This document shows positions 11,026-29,440 of a stretch of DNA of 34,146 nt, one piece after another (positions within the stretch are counted from its first letter, which is position 1; the number at the start of each line of letters is the position of its first letter). The DNA comes from a virus: IMG/VR virus record IMGVR_UViG_3300025313_000079, positions 1 through 34,146 of that record; one strand, written 5' to 3'. The translations under genes were made by a program, and so were the position numbers. The notes below the pieces were generated by a model. That model ran no database searches and had not been told where the DNA came from. It saw only the letters and a program-made list of their open reading frames with translations.

Positions 11026-11610
11026 ATGAACCTCGCCATTGGCCTGATCCACAACAAGAACCCGGCCACCAACCGCAACCAGATTACCGCTCTTACGGCA
11101 TTGGTAGAGCGCCATGTGCTGAATCTGGCCGGTCAGGAGTTCGACCCTACAACGCAAGACGACGTCGGGATTTCCCGCGTCTACTACACGATTGCGGGTC
11201 TGAGTGTGCCTCACGAGGCGATTTTCTTCCAGGCTATCCCGACCGGAATCAATCCGCCCAACAATCTGTATAACTTAGACAGCTATAAGGTTTTCTACTC
11301 ACCTAATGATAACGCGGATAAAGTAGGACAACATCCGCGCTTTTGGAACTGGACGCTCAAGCGCGGCTTCGACTACGGGGCAGATATCTCCTGTGTGATC
11401 ACCGACCATCTCATGTTCACCGTCGCCGGATTGCAGCTCCAGATTGGGCGTCTTGCGGATCGCCGCGTGCTGGTCGTGCCGCTGTGGGGGCTGGCTGCAG
11501 CCGCCCGACTATTTCGCGAGGTGGGACAACTGCGCGAGGATTTAGGCTTTTCGGGCGCACTGGATGACCTGCGGGCGCGGATTGTCGCCAGGGGGTTAGA
11601 GCATGGCTAG
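11026..11610 (+). CDS. Possible GT-A-like glycosyltransferase, divergent
   Basis: The 194-residue product starts MNLAIGLIHN like the first strand of a Rossmann-type sugar transferase. FWNWTLKRGFDYGADISCVI followed by TDH resembles the part of GT-A enzymes that leads into the DxD motif, though DxD itself is replaced. The rest has AGLQLQIGRLADRRVLVVPLWG and a helical Arg/Leu-rich C-terminus. It begins right at the previous stop and overlaps the first repeat protein gene by 8 bases. The context supports a glycan role, but the family call is weak. Confidence 0.4.
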   Translation: MNLAIGLIHNKNPATNRNQITALTALVERHVLNLAGQEFDPTTQDDVGISRVYYTIAGLSVPHEAIFFQAIPTGINPPNNLYNLDSYKVFYSPNDNADKVGQHPRFWNWTLKRGFDYGADISCVITDHLMFTVAGLQLQIGRLADRRVLVVPLWGLAAAARLFREVGQLREDLGFSGALDDLRARIVARGLEHG

Positions 11611-13426
11611 GCTTGCCATTGTCGGCGCTGAGCTTAATACCACATCGTCGGGCGTTGAATGGACGGCGCGCGTCGCGTCTGGATGGCCGTCGATTTCCAG
11701 CACCATCAAACGCAGCGGCGGGTACAGCGTGCAGATCAATTCGCTGGTTTCCGCTACTCCAAAATGGGTAGCCAGCCAATACGCAGGAGGCGGGACAGGC
11801 CCGTGGTTTGCGCGGGTGTATATCCGCCCGGATACGCTGCCCAGCGCGGAGAATACGATCGTCGTTCTGAATGATGGCCCGAACGTTACAACCCCTATCA
11901 TCTGGGTGACGCTGGATAACACCGGCGTGCTGCGCCTGTATGACGAGGACGGCGCGATTGGCTCGGCGTCCTCCGCTTTGACCTTGGAGTCATTTGAGAA
12001 CCGCATCGAGTTCCAGACGAACGCCTCGGGCGGCGCGGGGGCGTGCGTCGTGCGCTGCCTCCTGAATGGGACGGAGTTCGCCGGTTCAAGCACGCGGTCG
12101 CTCTCTGCCGGGACTAACGCAATCGTCATCGGCGGCAACCTGCAATCCGAGGCGCAGACGCAGGGCGAGTGGTATTTCGATGACCTGGCGATCAACAATA
12201 ATTCGGGGTCGTTTCAAAATAGTTACCCCGGCGCGGGTAATGTAGTCGCGCTACGCCCCAACACGACGGGCGACAATGCAGCCTTTGCCCGCGGCGGGAC
12301 GGACAGCGGGGCGAACTGGTCTCAGACAGACGAGATTAATCCCAACGACGCCACCGACTATGTGTCATCAGGGACGGTGGAACATATTGACGACTACAAC
12401 TGCGAAGCCTCGCCCGCGGATGTAGATACGGTCAACGTCGTCGCCGTGGGCGTGCGCCACACGCTATCCGCGGCTACCGGCTCCGACCCCTTATTTGTCA
12501 CCCGCATCAAAGCCTCTGCTGGCGGGACGGTCGAGGAATCGGCCACCCATTTTGTAAATAATACTACCTGGTACTCTAACTCCGAACCGACATTTGCGGC
12601 GAACTCCCGCCTGGTCTTGTACGACCTGCCTGGGGCGAGCACCACAGCCTGGACGAAGTCTGACCTGGACGCAATGCAGATCGGGGTGCGTATCTCTACC
12701 GGCGATGCCGATGCGGCCTGGGTTTCGACGCTCTGGGCGCTGGTGGACTACGTGCCAAGCGGCGTTTCAGATCTCACCGTATCCAAAACCGAAGCCGTAA
12801 CGCTGGGAGATACGCCTACTGTTGCCCCGCTGGTTATCCCCAATCTGAGCCTATCTGACACGGTATCTATCCTGGACACCGTAGTAATGGAGCTCAATAT
12901 TGAGATCGCTGTCTCTGACATGGTTGCAGTTGCCGACGTTGCCAGCATTGGCCCGCTTATTCTGCCAGACCTCAATATCACAGATAGCGTAGCCGTCGCC
13001 GACGCTGCCCAGATAGAACCTCTCGTTATTGATGTTTCGGTTGCTGATGCAATATCAGTAGTAGATTCCGCAACTGTAAGTATCCCTGTTGAGGGTGATC
13101 TAAACGTATCTGTCTCTGACGCGGTTGCTGTCTCTGACGCGGCCCAGGTCGACCCCCTTGCTCTAAGCCTGTCAGTATCCGAGGCTGTAGCAGTTGGAGA
13201 GACAATCGCAGCTATTGTTTCCGATCCGGCAATATCCGTAAGCGATGCTGTCTCAGTCACAGATACGGCTACCGTAAGCATCCCGGTCGAGGGCGAGCTG
13301 AGTATATCCGTATCCGATGCGGTTTCCGTTTCCGATGTAGCCCAGGTTGTATCTTCGACCGACCTGTCAATCGAAGTCAGCTATGATAACTTTGCCTACT
13401 GGAAAAGCGGGGTAAAAATCTCGTGA
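11603..13426 (+). CDS. Large Ser/Asp-rich repeat virion protein (fibre or decoration)
   Basis: The 607-residue product has two parts. Residues 1-390 are beta-rich and probably form two lectin-like jelly-roll domains: a ConA/LamG-like first half with GPWFARVYIRPDTLPSAEN and WYFDDLAINN, and a second domain ending ALVDYVPSG. From about residue 390 come at least nine tandem units of about 20-24 residues with consensus ISVSDAVSVTDTA. No signal peptide or sortase motif is present, so a virion fibre or capsid-attached decoration is more likely than a secreted adhesin. It overlaps both neighbours. The exact place in the particle is unknown. Confidence 0.7.
   Translation: MARLAIVGAELNTTSSGVEWTARVASGWPSISSTIKRSGGYSVQINSLVSATPKWVASQYAGGGTGPWFARVYIRPDTLPSAENTIVVLNDGPNVTTPIIWVTLDNTGVLRLYDEDGAIGSASSALTLESFENRIEFQTNASGGAGACVVRCLLNGTEFAGSSTRSLSAGTNAIVIGGNLQSEAQTQGEWYFDDLAINNNSGSFQNSYPGAGNVVALRPNTTGDNAAFARGGTDSGANWSQTDEINPNDATDYVSSGTVEHIDDYNCEASPADVDTVNVVAVGVRHTLSAATGSDPLFVTRIKASAGGTVEESATHFVNNTTWYSNSEPTFAANSRLVLYDLPGASTTAWTKSDLDAMQIGVRISTGDADAAWVSTLWALVDYVPSGVSDLTVSKTEAVTLGDTPTVAPLVIPNLSLSDTVSILDTVVMELNIEIAVSDMVAVADVASIGPLILPDLNITDSVAVADAAQIEPLVIDVSVADAISVVDSATVSIPVEGDLNVSVSDAVAVSDAAQVDPLALSLSVSEAVAVGETIAAIVSDPAISVSDAVSVTDTATVSIPVEGELSISVSDAVSVSDVAQVVSSTDLSIEVSYDNFAYWKSGVKIS
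12768..13356 (+). repeat. Tandem SVSDAVSVTD repeat array, first copy
   Basis: About nine units encode a degenerate motif (I/L)xVS(D/E)xVxVx(D/E)xAxV joined by PLV, PVEG or similar spacers. The protein motif is much better conserved than the DNA, so the array is old and maintained by selection rather than freshly duplicated. Each unit offers several exposed Ser or Thr residues. Confidence 0.8.
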
Positions 13427-13767
13427 GCTATCGTATCTATTACGCGGATGGAAGCACATACGATGGCGACCCCTGGCAGGCGCCGTTTTATCGGGCGCTT
13501 CTTATTCTGGAGCGCGATCCGGATCATGGGCGGCGCATCGTCTCCGGCGCAGACTACTACTGCTGGATGCCAGAGGAAAACCGCTGGCGGGGCTACGACC
13601 TGCCAGGCATGATGCAATATATGTATATTCCAGGTCCTAAGCGCTACCTGGTCGGCGAGATGGTCAATAACGACCTGTGGAACGCCACTTATCGACGAGC
13701 CGAGAATGACCCCGATTTCCCTTCCCGCACGGCATACGGCGTTTACGAGGAAAAGGGCGCAAGATGA
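13423..13767 (+). CDS. Hypothetical protein between the two repeat proteins
   Basis: The 114-residue product starts with GTG at 13423, overlapping the stop of the repeat protein. It is rich in Tyr, Trp and Arg, with SYRIYYADGSTYDGDPWQAP at the start. This resembles short phage proteins with a DGsxxdgdp-type turn. GADYYCWMPEENRWRGYDLPG follows in the middle. It may be a chaperone or cap for the repeat fibres given its position. No catalytic motif is visible. Confidence 0.6.
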   Translation: MSYRIYYADGSTYDGDPWQAPFYRALLILERDPDHGRRIVSGADYYCWMPEENRWRGYDLPGMMQYMYIPGPKRYLVGEMVNNDLWNATYRRAENDPDFPSRTAYGVYEEKGAR

Positions 13768-15296
13768 CCAATCCCAGTTATACCCAGGTTGGATTTCGCG
13801 GGCGCAACGATAACGGCAGTGAATCCAGCGCTACCTGGAAAGCCAACGAAAACGTCAACTGGTCGCAGAACGTGGCGGAGAATTTCCGCGTCCGCTTCAG
13901 GATCGATGAGACGGTTCCTAGACTCTGGACCAATAAGACCTTTAACTTGTACTATTCTGTGGGTGCAGGATATAACCCGGTCAGCGGGACGACCCCGGTA
14001 CAGTTTGCGCTGTCAAGTAATTTCAACAACAACGATGACTGCACCCAGCAGCTAACCGGCGGGACAGGAACATTCCTGGTTAACAACAATGGGATGAAGG
14101 AGGCGACCGGCGGATCTGTCAATACCGGCGCAGGTGGGGAGATTTGGGATACTGAATGGTGTTTAACCATAGACCCCGCACAGGTGGCTGACGGAAATAC
14201 GATTACCCTGCGCATCTATGACGGCGCCTCTGCCATTACTACCTATTCTAATACGCCCTCGATCACGGTTGTCGAGCGCAGTTTCAGCGTTTCCGACGCG
14301 GTGACGGTAGGGGATAGCGCGACCGTCCAGGTCGAAGCCCCAGTAATCACAGACCGGGAAATAAATACATCTGATGCCGTGGCATTAGCGGAAAGCTCGA
14401 AGGTGGAGCTGGAGAGCCTTGTCAGCGCCAGCGAAGCCGTAGCCGTTACGGATACGGTACGCTATTACCAGGAACACATCAACGTCTCTGAATTTGTCTT
14501 AGTAGAGGTCGAGGCGCTGATAGGAGATCTGGATATCAGCGTATCCGATTCCGTCGCCGTTGCGGATAGTGCGCAGATCGAGCCATTGACTCTGGATATA
14601 TCGGCGTTAGAAGCGGTTGCTCTTGCCGAAGCGCAGCAGCTCGATATCTCCATCGAAATCAGCCGGAGCGAAGCGGTTGCAGTTGCAGAAGCGGTCACGA
14701 CCGTTGTTTCTGGGCCAGAGATACTGATCAGTGACGCCGTTTCAATCACGGACACGGCCTCTGTCACTATCCCAGTCGCCGGGCAAATAGAGATCAACAT
14801 CTCGGATAACGTGACGATATCCGACGCCACAACTATTGCCCCGTTGGAGATCAACGCAAGCGCCTCCGAAGCCGTCTCAGTCGGTGAAGCACAGACATTA
14901 GACATCCCCATTAATATATTCGCCTCAGATGCGGTTTCGGTTACGGATACTGCAAGCATTGCGCTCCCCGACGCCCTGGCAATCAGCCAGACCGAGAGCA
15001 TTGCCGTTGCCGAGGCGGTAACAATAAGCTCCGCCCTGGAAACGCCGTCCATTTTTGTTACCGATAACGTCTCAGTCACTGATAACGCCATAATGGCATT
15101 TGCCGGTACGCTGGTGATCGAGGCGTCAGAGGCCATTTCAGTTACCGATGTGCTCCAGGCGTTTGTCCCGGCAGGCGTGGGGCATAGGGTATTTGTACGT
15201 TTCGAGGACAGGCGCGCATACGTGGATTTTGAAAATCGGCGCCATTACGTGCGCTTCGAAGACCGGCGAGTTTATCAGGAGAAACATGATGAGTAA
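13764..15296 (+). CDS. Second Ser/Asp-rich repeat virion protein
   Basis: The 510-residue product starts with a beta-type domain (residues 1-170, with NENVNWSQNVAENFRVRFR and FNLYYSVGAGYNP). Then come about fourteen units of the SVSDAVxVxD type shared with the protein at 11603. It ends with three 9-residue repeats, VRFEDRRAY, VDFENRRHY and VRFEDRRVY, and a short charged tail. The two repeat genes look like paralogues with different N-terminal domains. The ATG overlaps the previous stop. A fibre or capsid-surface role is likely, and Ser/Thr residues could accept sugars from the nearby transferases. Confidence 0.7.
   Translation: MTNPSYTQVGFRGRNDNGSESSATWKANENVNWSQNVAENFRVRFRIDETVPRLWTNKTFNLYYSVGAGYNPVSGTTPVQFALSSNFNNNDDCTQQLTGGTGTFLVNNNGMKEATGGSVNTGAGGEIWDTEWCLTIDPAQVADGNTITLRIYDGASAITTYSNTPSITVVERSFSVSDAVTVGDSATVQVEAPVITDREINTSDAVALAESSKVELESLVSASEAVAVTDTVRYYQEHINVSEFVLVEVEALIGDLDISVSDSVAVADSAQIEPLTLDISALEAVALAEAQQLDISIEISRSEAVAVAEAVTTVVSGPEILISDAVSITDTASVTIPVAGQIEINISDNVTISDATTIAPLEINASASEAVSVGEAQTLDIPINIFASDAVSVTDTASIALPDALAISQTESIAVAEAVTISSALETPSIFVTDNVSVTDNAIMAFAGTLVIEASEAISVTDVLQAFVPAGVGHRVFVRFEDRRAYVDFENRRHYVRFEDRRVYQEKHDE
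14281..15162 (+). repeat. Tandem SVSDAVSVTD repeat array, second copy
   Basis: About fourteen units of 20-24 residues share the consensus of the array at 12768. Variants include SASEAVAVTD, NISDNVTISD and FASDAVSVTD. Some units replace Asp by Glu (SEAVAVAE), keeping charge and spacing. Confidence 0.8.
15195..15275 (+). repeat. Three 27-base repeats encoding V(R/D)FE(D/N)RRxY
   Basis: Three consecutive 9-residue units follow one another without spacers at the C-terminus of the second repeat protein. The Arg-Arg and Phe-Glu pairs are invariant. The basic-aromatic end contrasts with the acidic Ser-rich array before it and may bind the particle. Confidence 0.85.
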
Positions 15297-15636
15297 TGTT
15301 ATTGTCCCCCCAAAAGACCCAAACGAGATCAAGCCCTATCACGTTGTATGGTGCGATAAGGACGGCACCAACGATGGCAGCGCGAACGATGACGGCGAGC
15401 TGCAAAGTGCGACGATCAGCACCTCGACCTGGACGGTTCCCACCGGTCTTACCGAGCAAAGCAGCAATAAAAACGCGGTGACCATCAAGGGCGTGAGCTA
15501 TCTGATTAATACCGTAGCGACAATCTGGGTATCCGGCGGCACGGCAGGGAATGATTACGACGTGCTCAACCGGGTGGTGCTCAGCGATGGGCGTACACTG
15601 GATAAGACCATTACTATCCCAGTTCGGGATAAGTAA
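15286..15636 (+). CDS. Fibre-tail adaptor-like virion protein
   Basis: The start is the ATG-ATG at 15286-15291, with CAGGAG upstream. The product is about 116 residues and has one Ig-like beta domain with ISTSTWTVPTGLTEQ, TVATIWVSGGTAGNDYDV and SDGRTLDKTITIPVRDK. The pattern WxVPxGL ... VWLSGG..G..Y.V.N....SDGR...TI.I.V is known from short phage virion proteins described as fibre-tail adaptors or head fibres. Its place right after the repeat proteins supports attaching them to the particle. The function is inferred from pattern and context. Confidence 0.6.
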   Translation: MMSNVIVPPKDPNEIKPYHVVWCDKDGTNDGSANDDGELQSATISTSTWTVPTGLTEQSSNKNAVTIKGVSYLINTVATIWVSGGTAGNDYDVLNRVVLSDGRTLDKTITIPVRDK

Positions 15637-15653
15637 TATTCAACGGCTGAATT

Positions 15654-16337
15654 ATGGCAGACATACCGAATCGAGGCGAATTAGAACGCAGGATGGCGAG
15701 GCTGCTGGCCCGTTTCCTGTCCGCGCACGGGGGGCACTTGTTGGAGAAAATGGGCGACCCACCGCGCCTGGAAAACCTGCCGCTGGACTTCTGGTCCAGA
15801 GAGGGGAGGGCGCTGGCTAAAATCCTGTCCCCTTTCTTAGAGGACATATTCTTGGAGCAGGCCAGGCGATTGATGATGAGCCAGCCGGTCGGGGCGGATT
15901 GGGCGCTGGTGAATGAGGGCGCAATCAGATGGTCGTCGACCTATACGTTCGAGCTGATAAAGGGGATGAATGAGACCACGCAGAGGGTAGTCAGCCGCGC
16001 CCTGAGCAACTATTACCAGCAGGGACAGACCATCGGAGAGCTTCAACGGGCGCTGGCTGGCACATTCGGACCGGTGCGCGCCGAGATGATTGCAGTAACC
16101 GAGGTCACCCGCGCCAGCGTCCAGGGAGAGATGGCAATAGCGGGTGAGCTAAGAAAGCAAGGCATTGAAATGACACCGTTTTGGCAGACCAACGCCGACG
16201 AGCTTGTTTGCCCGATATGCCAGCCCAGGAATGAAAAACGCCAGGGGGATGGCTGGATTGATCCGCCGCCCGCGCACCCACGCTGCCGGTGTTGGATCAA
16301 TCACGAACTGCCGAAATTAATCGCAGTGAGGGCATGA
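15654..16337 (+). CDS. Mu gpF-like minor head protein
   Basis: This 227-residue protein belongs to the minor head morphogenesis (Mu F) family, which sits by the portal inside the capsid. Its signature is in the second half: EMIAVTEVTRASVQGEM, FWQTNADELVCPIC and PPPAHPRCRCW, including the Cys/His residues that could bind a metal. The N-terminal half is helical with WSREGRALAKIL. The ribosome site is weak. Usually this gene directly follows portal. Here about 7.6 kb of accessory genes lie between them. The family assignment is firm. Confidence 0.9.
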   Translation: MADIPNRGELERRMARLLARFLSAHGGHLLEKMGDPPRLENLPLDFWSREGRALAKILSPFLEDIFLEQARRLMMSQPVGADWALVNEGAIRWSSTYTFELIKGMNETTQRVVSRALSNYYQQGQTIGELQRALAGTFGPVRAEMIAVTEVTRASVQGEMAIAGELRKQGIEMTPFWQTNADELVCPICQPRNEKRQGDGWIDPPPAHPRCRCWINHELPKLIAVRA

Positions 16338-20420: not shown

Positions 20421-21170
20421 ATGGAAACGGTCGCTATCCTTGTCGTGAACTATAACATGCCAGAGAGGACGGACGCACTGGCTGAGCACATTAACAACCG
20501 AATAGAATGGCCTCACATGCTTTTCGTGATCGACAACGGCAGCGATATCGCCCCACGGTCAAAACATACTAACGTGTTCCTGGAGAAAAACCGGCAGACT
20601 ACGGGCGGCTGGCTGGCAGGGCTGGAAGCGGCGGATAGTTACCATGAGGATTGGCTTGCTTACTGGTTTCTCATCACCTCTGCCGAATTCCCCGAATATG
20701 TTTTTGGTGACCCGCTTGCGCCGATGGCACAATTTCTTCTGGATGCGCCCAACGCGGTCGGCATACATCCCGCGCTTACACCCGACAGTACCACATCCTG
20801 GACACACCTGATAGCCCGCGGGGGAGATTATCCGCGCAGGACGTGGATGATAGACAATATCGCCAGCCTGTACCGCGCGGACTGGTTTAACAGCATCGGG
20901 CGATTCGACCCTGACCTGATTTACGGCTGGGGGATCGACCTGGAAACATGCTGGAAGGCGCGCCAACAAGGGCGGTCGCTGTGGGTGCATGAGGGTAGCT
21001 GGGTCAAGAAGATCACCGATATCGGCTATCAAATGGGGCGGATGAACATGAGCGCGGAGACGCGCCGCCAGGTAGCAGGCAATAACATGGCGGAGGTCTT
21101 ATCCGCTCGTTATGGGCCGGATTGGTGGGACAGAATGCTAAATGAAAATGTGGAGGCTGGCTGGAAATGA
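20421..21170 (+). CDS. GT2-like glycosyltransferase without a clear DxD motif
   Basis: The 249-residue protein has the GT2 opening VAILVVNYNMPERTDAL, FVIDNGSD, and NRQTTGGWLAGLEAA where such enzymes bind the nucleotide. Where a DxD is expected (about residue 90) it has WFLITSAEFPEYVFG. The acceptor side keeps LIYGWGIDLETCWKARQQG. It opens the seven-gene sugar block, and its stop overlaps the next ATG. The lost DxD means it may be inactive, use another metal-site residue, or be a carrier of a different activity. Confidence 0.75.
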   Translation: METVAILVVNYNMPERTDALAEHINNRIEWPHMLFVIDNGSDIAPRSKHTNVFLEKNRQTTGGWLAGLEAADSYHEDWLAYWFLITSAEFPEYVFGDPLAPMAQFLLDAPNAVGIHPALTPDSTTSWTHLIARGGDYPRRTWMIDNIASLYRADWFNSIGRFDPDLIYGWGIDLETCWKARQQGRSLWVHEGSWVKKITDIGYQMGRMNMSAETRRQVAGNNMAEVLSARYGPDWWDRMLNENVEAGWK

Positions 21171-21775
21171 ATGGTTTTTTCCGCTGGGATGATCCCAAGG
21201 TAAGCGAGGTGGCGGGCTACGCGTTGCCGCACGATTGGTGGTCACGTCCCTACGAATACGCCTGGGCGCTGGGCTTCGCAAAGCCGGGGCAGGTAGTCGC
21301 CGACATGGGCTGTGGATGGATGTACAGACCGTTCAAGGACGCGCTGGCGGGGATTTGCGAACATGTTTACGCGGTCGATCAAAACTCTCGACTGCTGGCG
21401 CAATCCAGGCCCGACAACATGACCTTCGTTATCGCCAACTTCAGCCAGAAGATCGAGGCGCTGGAAGCTGGCAGCCTGGACGCGATCTTCTGCATCTCCG
21501 TCCTGGAAGACCTGGGCGACTTCGCCGGCCACGCGCTAAAAGAGTTCGGGCGCCTGCTCAAAGATGATGGGCTGGTCGTGATTACCTTCGATGCGCCGTA
21601 TGACGATAACAACCCCACGCCGGTCTATCCGGGCCTGCCGCTGCATAAATTCAACAATGCAGTAAGGGCGGCGGGTTTGCGCCATAAGGGGATGTCTGAC
21701 TACCGCAAGGACAATGCCGTAAATCACGGCGAGTGGAATTTATCTTGCTTCCACTGTGTACTGGAGAAGCGATGA
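21167..21775 (+). CDS. Class I SAM-dependent methyltransferase
   Basis: Motif I is VVADMGCGWMYRPF (about residues 43-56), followed by VYAVDQNSRLL as motif II and LDAIFCISVLEDL and FGRLLKDDGLVVITFD as later strands. This is a Methyltransf_11-type enzyme of 202 residues. It overlaps the GT2-like gene by 4 bases and the next gene by 4. The context suggests methylation of a sugar. It is not closely similar in sequence to the methyltransferase at 9196, so the two probably have different targets. Confidence 0.82.
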   Translation: MNGFFRWDDPKVSEVAGYALPHDWWSRPYEYAWALGFAKPGQVVADMGCGWMYRPFKDALAGICEHVYAVDQNSRLLAQSRPDNMTFVIANFSQKIEALEAGSLDAIFCISVLEDLGDFAGHALKEFGRLLKDDGLVVITFDAPYDDNNPTPVYPGLPLHKFNNAVRAAGLRHKGMSDYRKDNAVNHGEWNLSCFHCVLEKR

Positions 21776-22512
21776 CGCCGCGACCGCTGGAGTGGATCAA
21801 AAACAATCTACACCCCCAAGGCGGAGTGCGCGCCTGGGCTGGCGGCCCGGCTTATCCCGAGGTAACTGGCTATCTCATCCCCACGCTGTTACGTTATGAC
21901 GAAATCGGAATGGCGATCGGTTTTGCCGATTGGCTGGGGAAGGTGCAGAATAAAGACGGCTCTTTTAATGGGCTGGATGGCAAGCCACGTTCTTTTGATA
22001 CCGCCGCGTGCCTGGAGGGATTGAGCATGACCTATCTCACTCAGCCAGCGGGCAGGGCGCGCGAATGGCTTTCCAGGATGCACGAGGGTGGGGTTTTCTG
22101 GACCACGCCGGAGCGGGATGAGCACAACGATTACACCATCCGGGTAAATGGAATTATGGGGATACCCCGCCAACTGCCCGAGAAGATAGCAGATAACCGC
22201 GTCCATTACATCGCTTACGCCCTGGAGGGCGCACTGGAGCTTGGAGAACGGGAATATGTCCAGGAAAAACTGGAATGGATGCGCAGTTACATGAACAACG
22301 GTTACACGCGCTACGAGATCAGGGACGGCTACGGCTGGGGGTTTGACCCCTGCGCTACTGCCCAGCTCGGAATACTGTACATCCGCTGTGGGATGGGTGA
22401 CCAGGGGACGCTCGCCGCGCTGGAGCGAGCTACTGCCAACGGATATCCGAACGCGTGGACGGCTAAATATCATCTGGATTTATTGGGGATGGTTGAACGT
22501 GCAGTCTTATGA
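21772..22512 (+). CDS. Alpha/alpha-toroid protein, terpene cyclase/prenyltransferase-like
   Basis: I choose ATG 21772, overlapping the stop of the methyltransferase gene. The 246-residue product has repeated helical units: NLHPQGGVRAWAGG, YPEVTGYLIPTLLRY, WLGKVQNKDGSFNGLDG, SFDTAACLEGL and NGYTRYEIRDGYGWGFDPCATAQL. QNKDGSF resembles the QW motif of squalene-hopene cyclase and prenyltransferase alpha/alpha barrels. No DxDD acid motif is evident, so cyclase activity is doubtful. In sugar gene clusters such toroids could act as lyases, epimerase-like enzymes or binding proteins. The fold is a fair inference and the activity is unknown. Confidence 0.6.
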   Translation: MTPRPLEWIKNNLHPQGGVRAWAGGPAYPEVTGYLIPTLLRYDEIGMAIGFADWLGKVQNKDGSFNGLDGKPRSFDTAACLEGLSMTYLTQPAGRAREWLSRMHEGGVFWTTPERDEHNDYTIRVNGIMGIPRQLPEKIADNRVHYIAYALEGALELGEREYVQEKLEWMRSYMNNGYTRYEIRDGYGWGFDPCATAQLGILYIRCGMGDQGTLAALERATANGYPNAWTAKYHLDLLGMVERAVL

Positions 22513-23020
22513 CAGGATTGTCAGGGAGATTACCGGCAGAATAGCCATGACACAGCCAGAATGTGAAATCATTGAGGAGATAGCAGGACAGGTTTCAACA
22601 TGGGTGGAAATCGGGTGTTTATGGGGTGGGTCTGCAATTCTGGCTGCAATGGCGAATCCCGATTTGCGGATATGTACTGTTGATCCGTTCGATAAATATT
22701 ACGATGATGATTTATGTGTTGAGACGGTCCTGGAAAATTTTGTGCGCTTTGGCGTTGCGCACCGGATATCAATTGTCAAAGCAAAGTCGCATCCCTGGCC
22801 TTTCCCCGCTTCTGTGCGATTTGATGCGGCATTGATCGATGGAAGCCATACGGTTCAGGATGTCAAGGCAGATTGGGAAAATGTGTGGGCTTCAACAGAT
22901 AGATTTGTTTTATTTCATGATTATGATGATCCGCCGATCCAGGATTTTATCGAGACTTCTGTGAAACTCAAACCATATCGGACAAGCAAGAGGATGGTTG
23001 CATTTGAACTACGAAATTGA
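22499..23020 (+). CDS. SAM-dependent methyltransferase, Methyltransf_24-like
   Basis: I choose GTG 22499, which has GGGGATGG upstream and overlaps the toroid gene by 14 bases; an ATG at 22547 is a shorter option. From the start the product reads VQSYDRIVREITGR, then WVEIGCLWGGSAILAA (motif I), ICTVDPFDKYY, and ALIDGSHTVQDVKADWENV, followed by VLFHDYDDPP. This pattern is found in the Methyltransf_24 family, some of which methylate sugars. The gene is A/T-richer than its neighbours. Confidence 0.78.
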   Translation: MQSYDRIVREITGRIAMTQPECEIIEEIAGQVSTWVEIGCLWGGSAILAAMANPDLRICTVDPFDKYYDDDLCVETVLENFVRFGVAHRISIVKAKSHPWPFPASVRFDAALIDGSHTVQDVKADWENVWASTDRFVLFHDYDDPPIQDFIETSVKLKPYRTSKRMVAFELRN

Positions 23021-23822
23021 TTATGAGGCCTGGAGTGCCCCAAAGACGTTCGGTTTCTCGGGATGCTTCCGCCTGCGCAACGAGAGCCAATTCATGGAAG
23101 CCGCGATCCGGTCTCATCTGCCCTGGCTGGACGAGGCGGTACTGGTGGTGCAGCCCTCTAAAGATGACACTACAGAGAGGGCCTATCGCATGGCTGGAGA
23201 GGACAGACGTATCAAAGTACATGAATATCCATTCGAGTGCGATTGGATTGATACGCCCGGCTTCTACGCCAAAGACCCCGACGCGCCGGGGCACATGGTC
23301 CACATGAGTAATTGGGCATTCACAAAATGCCGCTATTCCTGGATCGTCAAGGTTGAGGGCGACGTGATTGCTACATCGACATTTGCAGACATCGTTGAAC
23401 GGGTGCAAGCCCAGCCCGACAAATATATCTACTACGGGCGGGTGGTGCTGAACATGGCCGGCGAGATGTGCGATATGGTCTCCTGGGATAACCCGCGCAA
23501 TGGCGGCTGGGACGAGGCGGTCGTGCCCAATAACCCGGCCTATCATTTCAAGCGCCAGGATAAATGGGAGGTCTTGCAGAACCCCGGCGAGGGCATTTCG
23601 ATGGGCTGGTCCGGGCTGCACATGAAACGGTGCAAGCGCGGAAAAACGGATGGTTGGAACGGGGAGACATACATCCCGTTTACCAGGGAGGGCGTCAGGA
23701 GCGCGCTGGCGCATTTCAACCGCCACAAAATGTCTTATCCGGCGGCAGATGACCCGCTGGGGGCAGAATGTATCTACGAAGGGAATTGGATCGAATGGTA
23801 TCTGAAAAACTTGTCAGCGTGA
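22998..23822 (+). CDS. GT2-like glycosyltransferase
   Basis: The frame opens at TTG 22998, but TTG 23004 is better spaced from AGAGGATGG; either gives about 272-274 residues. The N-terminus has FGFSGCFRLRNESQFMEAAI and LDEAVLVVQPSKDDT, as in GT2 enzymes that begin with an RNE motif. WIVKVEGDVIATSTFADIV holds an EGD in place of DxD. The rest has NPGEGISMGWSGLHMKRC, HFNRHKMSY and a Trp-rich end. It overlaps both neighbours and is part of the sugar block. The donor and acceptor are unknown. Confidence 0.72.
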   Translation: MHLNYEIDYEAWSAPKTFGFSGCFRLRNESQFMEAAIRSHLPWLDEAVLVVQPSKDDTTERAYRMAGEDRRIKVHEYPFECDWIDTPGFYAKDPDAPGHMVHMSNWAFTKCRYSWIVKVEGDVIATSTFADIVERVQAQPDKYIYYGRVVLNMAGEMCDMVSWDNPRNGGWDEAVVPNNPAYHFKRQDKWEVLQNPGEGISMGWSGLHMKRCKRGKTDGWNGETYIPFTREGVRSALAHFNRHKMSYPAADDPLGAECIYEGNWIEWYLKNLSA

Positions 23823-24487
23823 TCGTGCCTACATTTGCCCGCCCTGCGCTATTGCACCGCGCCCTGGTGAGCATCTTGGAGCAGACCTACCCGCATTATG
23901 AGGCAGTGGTAGTCAATGATGGTGGGGTGGATATCCGCGGAGTTGTCGAGCAGTTTGGATTTGCCAGGCTGGTCGAGCACGAAGAAAACCAGGGGCTTCC
24001 CGCGGCGAGAAATACGGGGATAAGGAACGCTTATGGAGAATACATCACGTATCTTGACGACGACGATAAGTTTTACTCAAACCACCTGGAGCAGCTTGTC
24101 TCAGGTCTGGCAGGCGGTTATCGGTTTGCCTACACCGACGCACACGTCCAGTATCGCGGCGGAAACCCGAAGCTGTATATGTCCCAGGACTTCGACCGAG
24201 AGGGGCTTAGACGAGTCAACCAGTTCCCCGTGTGCTGCGTAATGCACGAGCATAATCTGATCGACGAGGCAGGATGGTTCGATGAGAGCTTGCCCAGCCA
24301 CGAGGATTGGGATTTATGGATCAGGATGAGCGAGATAGCCGACTTCCTGCACATCCGGGAAATAACCTGTCTGGTGGATAAGACCCAGATCGGCATGATG
24401 GATGACGGCACAAATATGCGCCGCGGCTATTTTATGGTGTTCAACAAATATGCTGAGAATCCTGTTGTATTGCCCCCTATCACCTAG
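23795..24487 (+). CDS. GT2 glycosyltransferase, canonical
   Basis: I choose ATG 23795, overlapping the previous gene by 28 bases; an earlier in-frame start at 23768 adds nine residues. The product (about 230 residues) shows the family order: VSVIVPTFARPALLHRALVS, YPHYEAVVVNDGG, NQGLPAARNTGIRNAYGEYI, the DxD motif YLDDDDKFY, and the acceptor-site SHEDWDLWIRMSE. This inverting enzyme transfers a sugar from a nucleotide donor. It is the clearest glycosyltransferase here. It overlaps the next gene by 38 bases. Confidence 0.9.
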   Translation: MVSEKLVSVIVPTFARPALLHRALVSILEQTYPHYEAVVVNDGGVDIRGVVEQFGFARLVEHEENQGLPAARNTGIRNAYGEYITYLDDDDKFYSNHLEQLVSGLAGGYRFAYTDAHVQYRGGNPKLYMSQDFDREGLRRVNQFPVCCVMHEHNLIDEAGWFDESLPSHEDWDLWIRMSEIADFLHIREITCLVDKTQIGMMDDGTNMRRGYFMVFNKYAENPVVLPPIT

Positions 24488-25115
24488 CTCTCCAGGGATA
24501 CATCCCAGGACGCGGGAGAGCATCGACGCCCTGAAATGGGAGGGGCCATTGGATATCCATTATGGGAGGGGAGACTTGATCGCCAACCCGAGCTGGACGG
24601 AAAAGAACGACAACATTACCTATAAATACAACACGGCGCGCAAAATGGCTCTTGACGGCGGCTATGATGCTCTTTTTACGGTCGAGGCTGACATGATATT
24701 ACCCCCACTTGCATTGGAGCGCATGACCAGGATAGAGGCGGATGTGGTGTATGGGCTGTATGTATCCAGGCACGGCAAACACCCCTGGTTGGCATTTAGC
24801 AGGGTGACACCCGAGATACGCGGCAGCAAGAGCTTCGATGAATACCCGGATTTGATGCAAGCCGCCTGGGGCAGAGCAGTAGAAACGGTCGGCGTGGGGA
24901 TGGGCTGCACATTGATCTGGCGGCACGTGCTGGAGGCAATACCGTTCCGAAATACCGATGAGCTGATTGCAAACGATTGGTATTTCTCGCTCGACCTCCA
25001 GGCCGGGGGCTATATGCAAAAACATGATTGCGGGGTGGTGTGCGGGCATATCGAGGGCGATCGGGTTTACTGGCCCGATCCGCTGAAAGGATACGTGGAA
25101 TATGGCTTACTGTGA
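24450..25115 (+). CDS. GT-A type glycosyltransferase
   Basis: I choose ATG 24450; no strong ribosome site is visible, and the 38-base overlap with the previous gene suggests coupling. The product starts LRILLYCPLSPSSPGIHPRT and has NTARKMALDGGYDALFTVEA, where EADM stands in the DxD position, then DVVYGLYVSRHGKHP and GVGMGCTLIWRHVLEAIPF. It ends DVVCGH-like with IEGDRVYWPD. The layout resembles the transferase at 9753, so the two may be distant paralogues. It is the last gene before the connector, overlapping it by 14 bases. Confidence 0.75.
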   Translation: MLRILLYCPLSPSSPGIHPRTRESIDALKWEGPLDIHYGRGDLIANPSWTEKNDNITYKYNTARKMALDGGYDALFTVEADMILPPLALERMTRIEADVVYGLYVSRHGKHPWLAFSRVTPEIRGSKSFDEYPDLMQAAWGRAVETVGVGMGCTLIWRHVLEAIPFRNTDELIANDWYFSLDLQAGGYMQKHDCGVVCGHIEGDRVYWPDPLKGYVEYGLL

Positions 25116-26066: not shown

Positions 26067-26238
26067 ATACATCGTATTGGAAACATTATCTTTTGGGTCC
26101 GACTTTGCCTATCCGGGCGAAGAGGTTGAGTTAGATGATGAAACGGCGCTCGTGTTGATGAGGAAACGGGCAATCAAGCCTGCTGAGTTACGGCAGGAAA
26201 ATAAAACAAGCGAGGTGAAAGATGGCTCAAACAACTGA
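26059..26238 (+). CDS. Small acidic phage protein before the tail tube gene
   Basis: ATG 26059 overlaps the previous stop and the frame ends in TGA at 26236-26238, inside the tail tube gene; the product is 59 residues. It reads MARYIVLETLSFGSDFAYPG, EEVELDDETALVLMRKRAI and so on. The YPGEEVELDDETA segment resembles short phage proteins in head-tail regions that have a small SH3-like fold and carry a (G/P)GE motif. Overlaps on both sides make it a likely real gene. The function is unknown. Confidence 0.6.
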   Translation: MARYIVLETLSFGSDFAYPGEEVELDDETALVLMRKRAIKPAELRQENKTSEVKDGSNN

Positions 26239-26686
26239 CAGTATTTGGGGAGGCGCGGCCTATATAGGTATATCCATCAATGGGAGCGCGTGGACGGATA
26301 TCAGCGGACACTCCAACCACGTCACGCCGGACGGCGGCGATAGGCGTACCGGCCAGGCCTACACTTTCGACGGGGAAAATCCCATCGTCAAAGTAGGCAA
26401 GAAAAACCCGCGGCAAACCAGGGTAGATATTATCTATACCGAGATTGCCACAGATGCATTCGAGGTCGCTCGGGCGCAGTTCGATGCGGCTGGCGGTGGG
26501 ACGATGTACGTGCGCTGGTCGCCAAAGGGCGGCGGTGTGGGCGATGCGGGTTATACGACCAGCTCGGGTTTCGTGCTCGATTTTCGTTTCCCTGAACCGG
26601 ACAGCGAAGAGGACGGACCGATGCACGGGTATTTTGTCGTACAGCACGCGGGTATCACGCGCTCGATTATTGCCACAGCCTGGTAG
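26222..26686 (+). CDS. Major tail tube protein
   Basis: The 154-residue protein begins with TDSIWGGAAYIGISING and SAWTDISGHSNHV. It continues as alternating strands (QTRVDIIYTEI, GTMYVRWSPKG, SGFVLDFRFPEPD), a single tube-type beta sandwich. Tail tube monomers stack as rings around the tape measure. GAGGTGAAAG lies just before the ATG. Its place just before the chaperone pair and tape measure is the classic order. Confidence 0.8.
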   Translation: MAQTTDSIWGGAAYIGISINGSAWTDISGHSNHVTPDGGDRRTGQAYTFDGENPIVKVGKKNPRQTRVDIIYTEIATDAFEVARAQFDAAGGGTMYVRWSPKGGGVGDAGYTTSSGFVLDFRFPEPDSEEDGPMHGYFVVQHAGITRSIIATAW

Positions 26687-26698
26687 AAAGGATCATAA

Positions 26699-27052
26699 AT
26701 GGCAGAGCGAAAACATAAGAAGTATCGCCGCGTGGATAGCTCAGAGATTCAGGGCGAAGGCTCTTACGTCTTGTTTGAATCTCCTGGCTTTGATGCTCTT
26801 GCAGTGGTTCTAAAAGTCGCCGAACTGGAGGGGATAGAAAGCGGCAATGTGGATATCTCCAAGCTGGACGAGGGGACATTCGATGCTGTTTTTGACCTTC
26901 TGGATCGCACGGTCAAGGAATGGAACTGGGTCGATGACGATGGACAGCCATTACCTCAGCCTGGAGAAAACGACGTTATCCGCAAGCAACTTACCCAAGA
27001 AGAGCAGGTTTTCTTAATCAGCTCTATGCCGCTTGGCGAAGCAAAAAACTGA
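26699..27052 (+). CDS. Tail assembly chaperone, upstream frame (lambda G-like)
   Basis: The 117-residue product starts MAERKHKKYRRVD. It has a beta segment GSYVLFESPGFDALAV and a helical middle (DEGTFDAVFDLLDRTVKE), and ends MPLGEAKN. It binds tape measure protein to guide tail assembly. A minus-one slippery heptamer ends three bases before its stop codon, so a fraction of ribosomes would add the downstream frame. The position between tail tube and tape measure and the frameshift together make the call strong, although the sequence itself is divergent. Confidence 0.82.
   Translation: MAERKHKKYRRVDSSEIQGEGSYVLFESPGFDALAVVLKVAELEGIESGNVDISKLDEGTFDAVFDLLDRTVKEWNWVDDDGQPLPQPGENDVIRKQLTQEEQVFLISSMPLGEAKN
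27043..27049 (+). other. Programmed minus-one frameshift site A_AAA_AAC
   Basis: In the reading frame of the chaperone gene, codons GCA AAA AAC TGA contain the heptamer A AAA AAC directly before the stop. It is one of the most efficient minus-one slippery sequences known. After slipping, the next codon is CTG at 27049-27051, and the new frame is open to 27255. Weak hairpins (GATG/CATC, GGTG/CACC) follow 10-45 bases downstream. A minus-one shift here fits the G/GT mechanism of phage lambda. Confidence 0.85.
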
Positions 27053-27255
27053 AACTGGCGATGCTGAAACATCTGTACGCGGGTGGATCAGCACCGCCAG
27101 AATACATCGAAATGATCTTATGCCGGGATATCTACCATTGCACGCCGGGTGAATTGGCGCAAATCCCGCTCGATACTATTCTTGCCCATCTAATTTGCCT
27201 GCGCGAGGAGCAAAAATGGGCCAAAGACAAACAGAGGTCTAAGGGTGGCAGTTAG
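27049..27255 (+). CDS. Tail assembly chaperone, frameshift extension (lambda T-like)
   Basis: This frame would normally be made only as a fusion to the preceding 117 residues, giving about 185 residues in total. The extension reads LKLAMLKHLYAGGSAPPEYI, then CRDIYHCTPGELAQIPLDTI, and ends in a Lys-rich segment. As in lambda T, the extension would bind the tail tube or recruit it to the tape measure. An ATG at 27061 could in principle start it separately, but no good ribosome site precedes it. It overlaps the tape measure gene by 11 bases. Confidence 0.8.
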   Translation: MKLAMLKHLYAGGSAPPEYIEMILCRDIYHCTPGELAQIPLDTILAHLICLREEQKWAKDKQRSKGGS

Positions 27256-29440
27256 TAGAAGCGAACTCGAAATCATCATCGGCCTGCAAGATAAAGCCAG
27301 CAGCGCATTGCGCGGCCTGACAGGGAATTTGAAGACTCTCGGTACGGTTGCCCTCAGTGCTGCGGCTGGCGGTATCGCCGCGCTTGGAGCTGGGTTGGGA
27401 TTGTTAGCATCCAAGGCCATCCCAGCGGCCTCCAACCTGAACGAGGCTCTAAATGCGACCAGGGTTATATTTGGCGAGACAGCCGAGGAGATTCAGAGAT
27501 TCGGCGAGATCGCCTCGAAAACAGCCGGGCTTTCCAGGCGCGAGTTCAATCAAATGGCCGCCGAAACCGGGGCGATGCTCCTGAACTTTGGAATCGACCT
27601 GAAATCGGCCACAAAAGGGACAATCGATCTTACCCAACGCGCCGCGGATATGGCCAGTATCTTCAACACCGAGGTTGGAGATGCCCTGGCTGCCATCCAA
27701 TCGGGTTTGCAAGGCATGTCGCTCCCACTGCGCCGATTTGGCGTTGATCTGTCCGACATAGCCATCAAAGCAAAGGCGATGGAAATGGGCCTGGGCGATA
27801 TCACGCGCCAGACAGACAGCGCGGCGTATGCGCAGGCAGCCATGGCGTTGCTAATGGAGCAAACAGACCGGATCGCCGGCGACTTCGTGAACACCTCTGG
27901 AGACCTTGCTAATGCGCAGAGAATAGCGAAAGCGGAGCTAGAGAATTTACTGGCAACTCTGGGGAGCATTGCCCTACCTGTTTTGGGGCAATTTTTTAAG
28001 CTCGTCTCATCCCAGATATTACCGGCATTAAATAACTTTGCCAATTATATAAAAGATGTGGCGGCTGGCGGGCCGCTGATTGGCGAAGCGTTTATGAAGC
28101 TACCCAAATTCCTGCAACCTATCGCTAAATTTTTGGGCCGATTGATTTCGGCATTCAAGGCGTTTTTCTCTGGACTGAAAAAGGGGGAATCTCCAATCAG
28201 TTTATTTGGTAAGATGGTCTTCAATCTATCTAAGGCATTTGGCGCGACCTCCGAGCAGGCGGGGAAGATAAAAGAGATATTCCTGGGGGTGGTCGAATTT
28301 ATTACTGGTTTAAAAGATCAGATCATGGAAGTTATTGGCCCCTTTGTCTCCTGGAAAGATGTGCTTATTGCCCTGGGGATTGCTATTGCAACAGTAATTA
28401 TCCCGCTCATTGGTGGATTAATTGGTGCGCTTGCCCCCATTATTCTAACGTTTGCAGCGGTGATATTGGCGGTCGCAGTACTGCGCAATGCCTGGGAGAA
28501 CAACTGGGGCGGGATCCGCGATAAGGTTCAAGCCGTGATCGCGTTCCTGGTGCCTCTGATTCGGGGATTCATTACCTCCATTCAGGCGTGGTGGGCGCAG
28601 AACGGAGAACAGATCATTGCCAGGGCGAAGGCAATCTGGGACGGAATTGTAAACGGTATTAATGCGTTTATCGCCTGGGCTGGACCGCTCATAAGCGGGT
28701 TTATCCAGTCAATCCGCGACTGGTGGGCTGAACACGGCGAAGGGATCATCGCCAAAGTACAAGAAATCTGGGATGGGATTCTCGCGATATTCGATTTTTT
28801 TGCCGCCCAATTCAAGACACTATTCGAGGCGTTCCAGTTAGCCCTTGAAGGCGATTGGCGCGCATTTGGCGAAAAGCTACGCGAGGGCTGGGACAGGGCC
28901 TGGAATGCCTTTAAGGAAGTAGTCACTACTTTTGGTACGTGGGTCGGGGGGCAAATAACTATATTGATAGATAATATCCGCACCTGGTTTACCGAGACCG
29001 ATTGGGCAGCGGTAGGGACATCGATCATCCAGGGTATTGCAAATGGGATCACAGCGGCGGCAGGAATTATCAAGGATGCTGCTTTACGCGCGGCAGCGGC
29101 AGCTTTTGAAGCAGTAAAAGGATTTTTCGGTATCGATTCTCCATCGAAAAAGTTTATGTTGGTTGGACAATCGCTCATGCAGGGAATGGCCCAGGGGGTG
29201 CGCCAAAACATCTCCGAGCCAGTCCGGGCAGCCACGCAAGCCGCAGCAGAAACCGTCCCTCAAATCCCCCAAATGCAGGGCTGGGGGAGCTCTCTAAGTA
29301 TTACTATACCTGCTATCAATGTCTATGGCACAGAGGGAACAACGGCCATAGATATTGCCAATGAGGTCGTCCGAATCATCATGGATTTAGCTGAGGCAAA
29401 CCGTGGAGGCGACTTTGCAGGACTATCGTACGCGGGGTGA
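27245..29440 (+). CDS. Tape measure protein
   Basis: The product starts with GTG 27245, after AAGG, and has 731 residues. The N-terminal part is Ala/Gly-rich with hydrophobic runs (about 30-60). The middle has a typical GETAEEIQRFGEIASKTAGL and MAAETGAMLLNFG, as in many tape measures. A hydrophobic region (about 375-415) and two Trp-rich units, AWWAQNGEQIIARAKAIWDG and DWWAEHGEGIIAKVQEIWDG, follow. FFGIDSPSKKFMLVGQSLMQ near residue 635 is a common tape measure end motif. At about 0.15 nm per residue the tail would be roughly 110 nm long. No lytic domain was seen. Confidence 0.93.
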   Translation: MAVSRSELEIIIGLQDKASSALRGLTGNLKTLGTVALSAAAGGIAALGAGLGLLASKAIPAASNLNEALNATRVIFGETAEEIQRFGEIASKTAGLSRREFNQMAAETGAMLLNFGIDLKSATKGTIDLTQRAADMASIFNTEVGDALAAIQSGLQGMSLPLRRFGVDLSDIAIKAKAMEMGLGDITRQTDSAAYAQAAMALLMEQTDRIAGDFVNTSGDLANAQRIAKAELENLLATLGSIALPVLGQFFKLVSSQILPALNNFANYIKDVAAGGPLIGEAFMKLPKFLQPIAKFLGRLISAFKAFFSGLKKGESPISLFGKMVFNLSKAFGATSEQAGKIKEIFLGVVEFITGLKDQIMEVIGPFVSWKDVLIALGIAIATVIIPLIGGLIGALAPIILTFAAVILAVAVLRNAWENNWGGIRDKVQAVIAFLVPLIRGFITSIQAWWAQNGEQIIARAKAIWDGIVNGINAFIAWAGPLISGFIQSIRDWWAEHGEGIIAKVQEIWDGILAIFDFFAAQFKTLFEAFQLALEGDWRAFGEKLREGWDRAWNAFKEVVTTFGTWVGGQITILIDNIRTWFTETDWAAVGTSIIQGIANGITAAAGIIKDAALRAAAAAFEAVKGFFGIDSPSKKFMLVGQSLMQGMAQGVRQNISEPVRAATQAAAETVPQIPQMQGWGSSLSITIPAINVYGTEGTTAIDIANEVVRIIMDLAEANRGGDFAGLSYAG

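Follow-up and report, generated by a model that had tools for sequence, protein, structure and literature searches.

In phage lambda, the tail assembly chaperones G and G-T are made in a 30:1 ratio through a frameshift at the end of G, and long-tailed phages conserve this arrangement even though their sequences are little alike (PMC5009743). The lambda slippery heptamer is G_GGA_AAG. Two haloarchaeal systems use related signals: HCTV-2 carries A_AAA_AAC in its g-t pair, and HCTV-1 carries G_GGA_AAC (PMC5009743). A_AAA_AAC slips less readily in E. coli than A_AAA_AAG does (PMC5009743). The latter is the heptamer of the bacterial dnaX cassette, in which a Shine-Dalgarno-like stimulator and a hairpin accompany the slip site. 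For stimulatory structures in such signals, a spacer of 5-9 nt is quoted (PMC7618472).

We compared with these systems a locus in a 34,146-b IMG/VR virus sequence (the window), which carries capsid, portal and terminase genes. The parts of the locus all lie on the plus strand. Gene G (26699..27052), an open frame with AAAGGA upstream of its ATG, would encode a short tail assembly chaperone of 117 aa. It is preceded by a probable major tail (tube) protein gene (26222..26686), whose product has no Pfam or PHROG match and whose role is taken from synteny, homologues lying directly upstream of G in relatives. The end of G reads ...GGC GAA GCA AAA AAC TGA..., that is, a heptamer A_AAA_AAC (27043..27049) phased X_XXY_YYZ in the G frame, followed directly by the zero-frame stop TGA (27050..27052). 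From 27049 the -1 frame contains 68 open codons and ends with TAG at 27253-27255, overlapping the start of the tape measure gene (27245..29440; start codon GTG at 27245; phrog_58 match, 4e-38). This T domain (27049..27255) would be fused to G by the frameshift, giving a product of 117+68=185 aa. A first, sequence-only reading of this DNA had placed the heptamer immediately before the TGA of the 117-residue gene, the open -1 frame up to the tape measure gene and a fusion of about 185 residues, and all three hold to the base. The length of T and its overlap with the tape measure gene hold for the window itself; in two near-identical contigs (L005/L020 and L006/L019), where the heptamer is kept and the region is almost unchanged, position 27232 is T instead of C. 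This creates a TAG at 27232-27234, so that T there has 61 codons (seven fewer) and no longer overlaps the tape measure gene. The only other difference between 26699 and 27300 is at 27143, within T.

The window agrees with the lambda G/GT family in all features that a sequence can reveal. Two overlapping ORFs lie between the major tail protein gene (assigned by synteny only) and the tape measure gene, a slippery X_XXY_YYZ heptamer stands near the end of G, and the second ORF is in the -1 frame; relatives retain the arrangement even where protein similarity is low, with L081, L043 and L048/L049 as exceptions. The match to lambda in position and mechanism that had been proposed at the outset is supported, and the likeness extends to phasing, gene order, direction, the predicted G and G-T products and their presumed job. 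It differs in its heptamer, in a strong predicted hairpin 5 nt downstream, and in that G and T have no significant sequence match to any described chaperone family. Calling the site a textbook case was slightly generous, given the lower shiftiness of its heptamer in E. coli. HCTV-2 shares the very heptamer and the kind of gene pair, the two points compared, with other hosts and genomes; the heptamer of HCTV-1 recurs in the L082 and L083 relatives described below. The A-rich heptamer and a stable structure a few nucleotides downstream (within about 5-9 nt) also recall dnaX, whereas the window has no obvious upstream Shine-Dalgarno-like stimulator, the frameshift product would be longer rather than shorter, and it would be a chaperone rather than a polymerase.

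To gauge the part of chance, we counted comparable features within the window. The bare string AAAAAAC occurs 4 times, against 2.8 expected, and so shows no enrichment. In-frame X_XXY_YYZ heptamers number 42 in the 10,571 codons of the plus-strand gene calls, 12 of them with AAA as the second triplet; in only 2 of 39 genes does one fall in the last five codons before the stop. A -1 frame that stays open for at least 40 codons past the stop is common (21/39 genes), and we therefore rejected it as evidence on its own; the case rests on the conjunction of features plus conservation. In codon preference, the T frame exceeds the remaining forward frames only weakly and one of the reverse frames not at all. 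Several other features of the window were recorded in passing. At 13752-13767, an A_AAG_GGC heptamer lies two codons before the stop of the gene at 13423-13767, and the -1 frame there is the next gene (13764-15296), which has its own overlapping ATG, probably indicating simple coupling. The stretch 11603-15296 encodes two long proteins composed of repeats of the 'SVSDAVAV-D' type, and a run of ORFs between the capsid and head-tail connector genes (20421-25115) looks glycosyltransferase- and methyltransferase-like by eye.

A scan with the T domain (motif ELVLCRDIYHCTP) recovered homologues in 28 further viral contigs (38-53% identity), which share EL[VI]LCRDIYHCTP or a sequence close to it. These contigs form six groups, and in five of them an in-frame heptamer near the G stop precedes a T in the -1 frame: A_AAA_AAA three codons before the G stop in L078/L079, C_CCA_AAG one codon before it in L080, G_GGA_AAC directly before it in L082, G_GGA_AAC one codon before it in the ten loci of the L083 group, and C_CCA_AAA directly before it in the thirteen loci of the L085 group. 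Counting the window's own, six of seven T-family lineages have a slippery heptamer. Relatives lacking any slippery heptamer at this place had been named as what would speak against the frameshift; this check speaks for it, as five further T lineages carry one. The expectation that the heptamer itself would be kept was borne out for its class and place; its letters differ among lineages, and L081 has none. Inside the L083 and L085 groups the heptamer is invariant, while third positions of upstream G vary at 53/66 and 32/66 sites, respectively. In every case T is flanked by G and the tape measure gene, and most lineages keep the order major tail protein-G-T-tape measure, with homologues of the major tail protein immediately ahead of G in L080, L081, L082 and the L083 and L085 groups (phmmer 1e-5 to 7e-29). 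Single-sequence searches recognised G only in L078/L079 and L081 among the T-family groups, indicating that T is the better conserved of the two. In L081, G and T are homologous to those of the window and T is in the +1/-2 frame. A possible +1 site around AAA TTT CGA was noted there (L081:2664-3225), or else an assembly indel.

The sequence-only reading made no mention of a hairpin, and the one found here is new relative to it. The predicted structure (27055-27100; 18 bp, three helices and a tetraloop) starts 5 nt after the heptamer, inside the quoted spacer range, and has a folding energy of -29.2 kcal/mol (z about -6.2 to -6.5). None of 200 and none of 300 shuffled sequences was as stable, and it is one of only 6 such stable places in the 34-kb window. 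Across all six -1 lineages, a main stem lies 2-9 nt past the heptamer, with MFE from -18 to -45 kcal/mol and z from about -1.8 to -7.4. Stems are strong in L082 (z -7.4), L080 (-4.1) and the L083 group (-2.1 to -4.7) and moderate in the L085 group (about -2.3 to -3.4) and L078 (-1.9); by energy alone, those of L080, L085 and L078 are not exceptional relative to their own locus. Synonymous change is suppressed around the hairpin: within spacer plus stem, fewer third positions vary than elsewhere in T, both in the L083 group (3/17 vs 28/53, p=0.010) and in the L085 group (3/17 vs 23/46, p=0.019). We saw no compensatory base changes in the L083-group hairpin, where the stem hardly varies and no pair changed on both sides, and DNA alignments across lineages were too divergent for counting base pairs. 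Since the hairpins are stable in the -1 lineages and synonymous change is suppressed in two groups, a stimulatory role for the predicted hairpin is likely. The strength of the hairpin may reflect the lower shiftiness of A_AAA_AAC. At the end of G in L081 no hairpin is predicted (z +0.25); we put at about even chances the reading in which the hairpin is a needed part of the signal and the L081 branch has lost both heptamer and hairpin, with T now in the +1/-2 frame. We found nothing specific on hairpins at tail chaperone frameshifts in the open-access literature searched, and claim no novelty for the hairpin as such.

Inside the groups of relatives, pairwise dN/dS in the T frame is about 0.02-0.06 and changes fall mostly in third positions; these comparisons mark T as a conserved domain on which purifying selection is strong in relatives. 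In principle, T could be a gene of its own, translated by reinitiation or by coupling once G has ended at its TGA and starting from ATG 27061. The window does offer an in-frame ATG at 27061, 8 nt after the TGA, and T-frame ATGs occur near the T start in L080, L082 and the L085 group. The ATG at 27061, however, is almost wholly buried in the predicted hairpin stem and has no obvious ribosome-binding site, and in 8 of the 10 members of the L083 group the T frame lacks any ATG, GTG or TTG before the conserved motif is reached, which means that no separate start could yield a whole T there. Reinitiation would also leave unexplained why heptamers of different letters sit at a fixed place, and we regard it as very unlikely.

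A fusion could also arise by transcriptional rather than ribosomal slippage, on the run of six A in the window heptamer or the eight in L078. Most relatives, however, have G_GGA_AAC, C_CCA_AAG, C_CCA_AAA or C_CCA_AAC at this place, none of them homopolymer runs, and the kept X_XXY_YYZ phasing and the hairpin past the slip site fit ribosomal slippage; we give this explanation scarcely any weight. That the heptamer is a chance string, with T unexpressed or made only by background frameshifting, draws on the lack of enrichment and the common open -1 frames noted above and has next to no probability left, as the relatives already contradict it with a T that is selected, always placed after G and ahead of the tape measure gene, and preceded by a heptamer in nearly every lineage. 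The class of the heptamers, the frame of T, synteny, selection on T and the hairpin kept in relatives instead argue for a programmed -1 ribosomal frameshift, which very probably sets the ratio of two tail assembly chaperones in this virus.

In more distant relatives, found through their capsid or tape measure proteins, G likewise ends in a heptamer: C_CCA_AAC in L007, L008, L010, L012, L024 and L030, C_CCA_AAA in L009, L026, L062 and L073, and A_AAA_AAC in L011, L029, L070 and L071. Hairpins are not evident in several heptamer-bearing distant relatives (L024, L026, L029, L030, L059 and L062). The exceptions are L043 and L048/L049, in which T is in the +1/-2 frame; these capsid relatives (L043:18019-18670, L048:9446-10103) have a different kind of T (NPTLRFEYQMARELGMT). 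A PWE-type T is found in L007, L012, L026 and L062; we do not take its likeness to the T family of the window as homology, the hhalign comparison being not significant (prob 6%).

To characterize the two proteins further, we searched families and folds. Neither G nor T has a significant match in Pfam or PHROGs, tail assembly chaperone families included; the best weak profile link is to phrog_9001 (tail assembly chaperone), with E 0.033 for the T relatives. For an AlphaFold model of G (mean pLDDT 72), the first two PDB matches are both to 2ob9, the tail assembly chaperone of HK97, at weak scores (prob 0.66, E 0.3-0.4 with 0.31 the best, TM 0.43-0.46), and the top viral structure matches include annotated tail assembly chaperones of Bacillus and Gordonia phages. 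The resemblance of this model to 2ob9 is suggestive at most. The structure search with T gave no decisive match.

Tblastn searches of isolated phages with the G and T of the window, and of plasmids with T, returned no match, and scans of genome contigs with the capsid alignment and a single capsid found no host genome. Only the G of L081 reached an isolated phage by tblastn, Thermoanaerobacterium phage THSA-485A (CP003186). Within its 14.3-17.4 kb region, profile searches over a set of 40 ORFs matched both G (2e-12) and T (1e-8), and its T gives E 0.01 against phrog_9001. As in the window, a homologous G is followed by T in the -1 frame before a tape measure gene, here of TP901 type. The candidate heptamer differs, being G_GGT_TTT, 13-14 codons before the stop. 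In the record, G is called hypothetical, and the T domain (CP003186.1, about 15563-15793) lies mostly unannotated between Tsac_2850 and the tape measure gene, which bears out the earlier remark that this feature is missed in annotations.

By the frameshift reading, most ribosomes would read G to the TGA at 27050 and release the 117-aa G protein. The hairpin at 27055-27100 would slow ribosomes while AAA and AAC occupy the P and A sites, and a minority would slip back one base at A_AAA_AAC and read on as CTG AAA CTG ..., producing the 185-aa G-T. By analogy with lambda, G would form a coat on the tape measure protein, and in the few G-T molecules the T part would bring in the major tail protein, allowing polymerisation of the tube around the tape; neither product would be expected in the virion. 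We infer the slippage and its efficiency, the stimulation by the hairpin and the binding partners of G and G-T as parts of this explanation.

Altogether, this analysis adds the hairpin in this cassette, the exchange of heptamers among relatives and a T family that is absent from the searched libraries. In a chaperone family missed by Pfam and PHROGs, the predicted G/GT frameshift is located to the exact base, which allows annotation of both products in this virus as well as in some 30 related contigs and no fewer than one isolated phage. With several heptamers, hairpins and one change of frame, the related lineages form a natural series for the trade-off between heptamer and hairpin outside E. 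coli.
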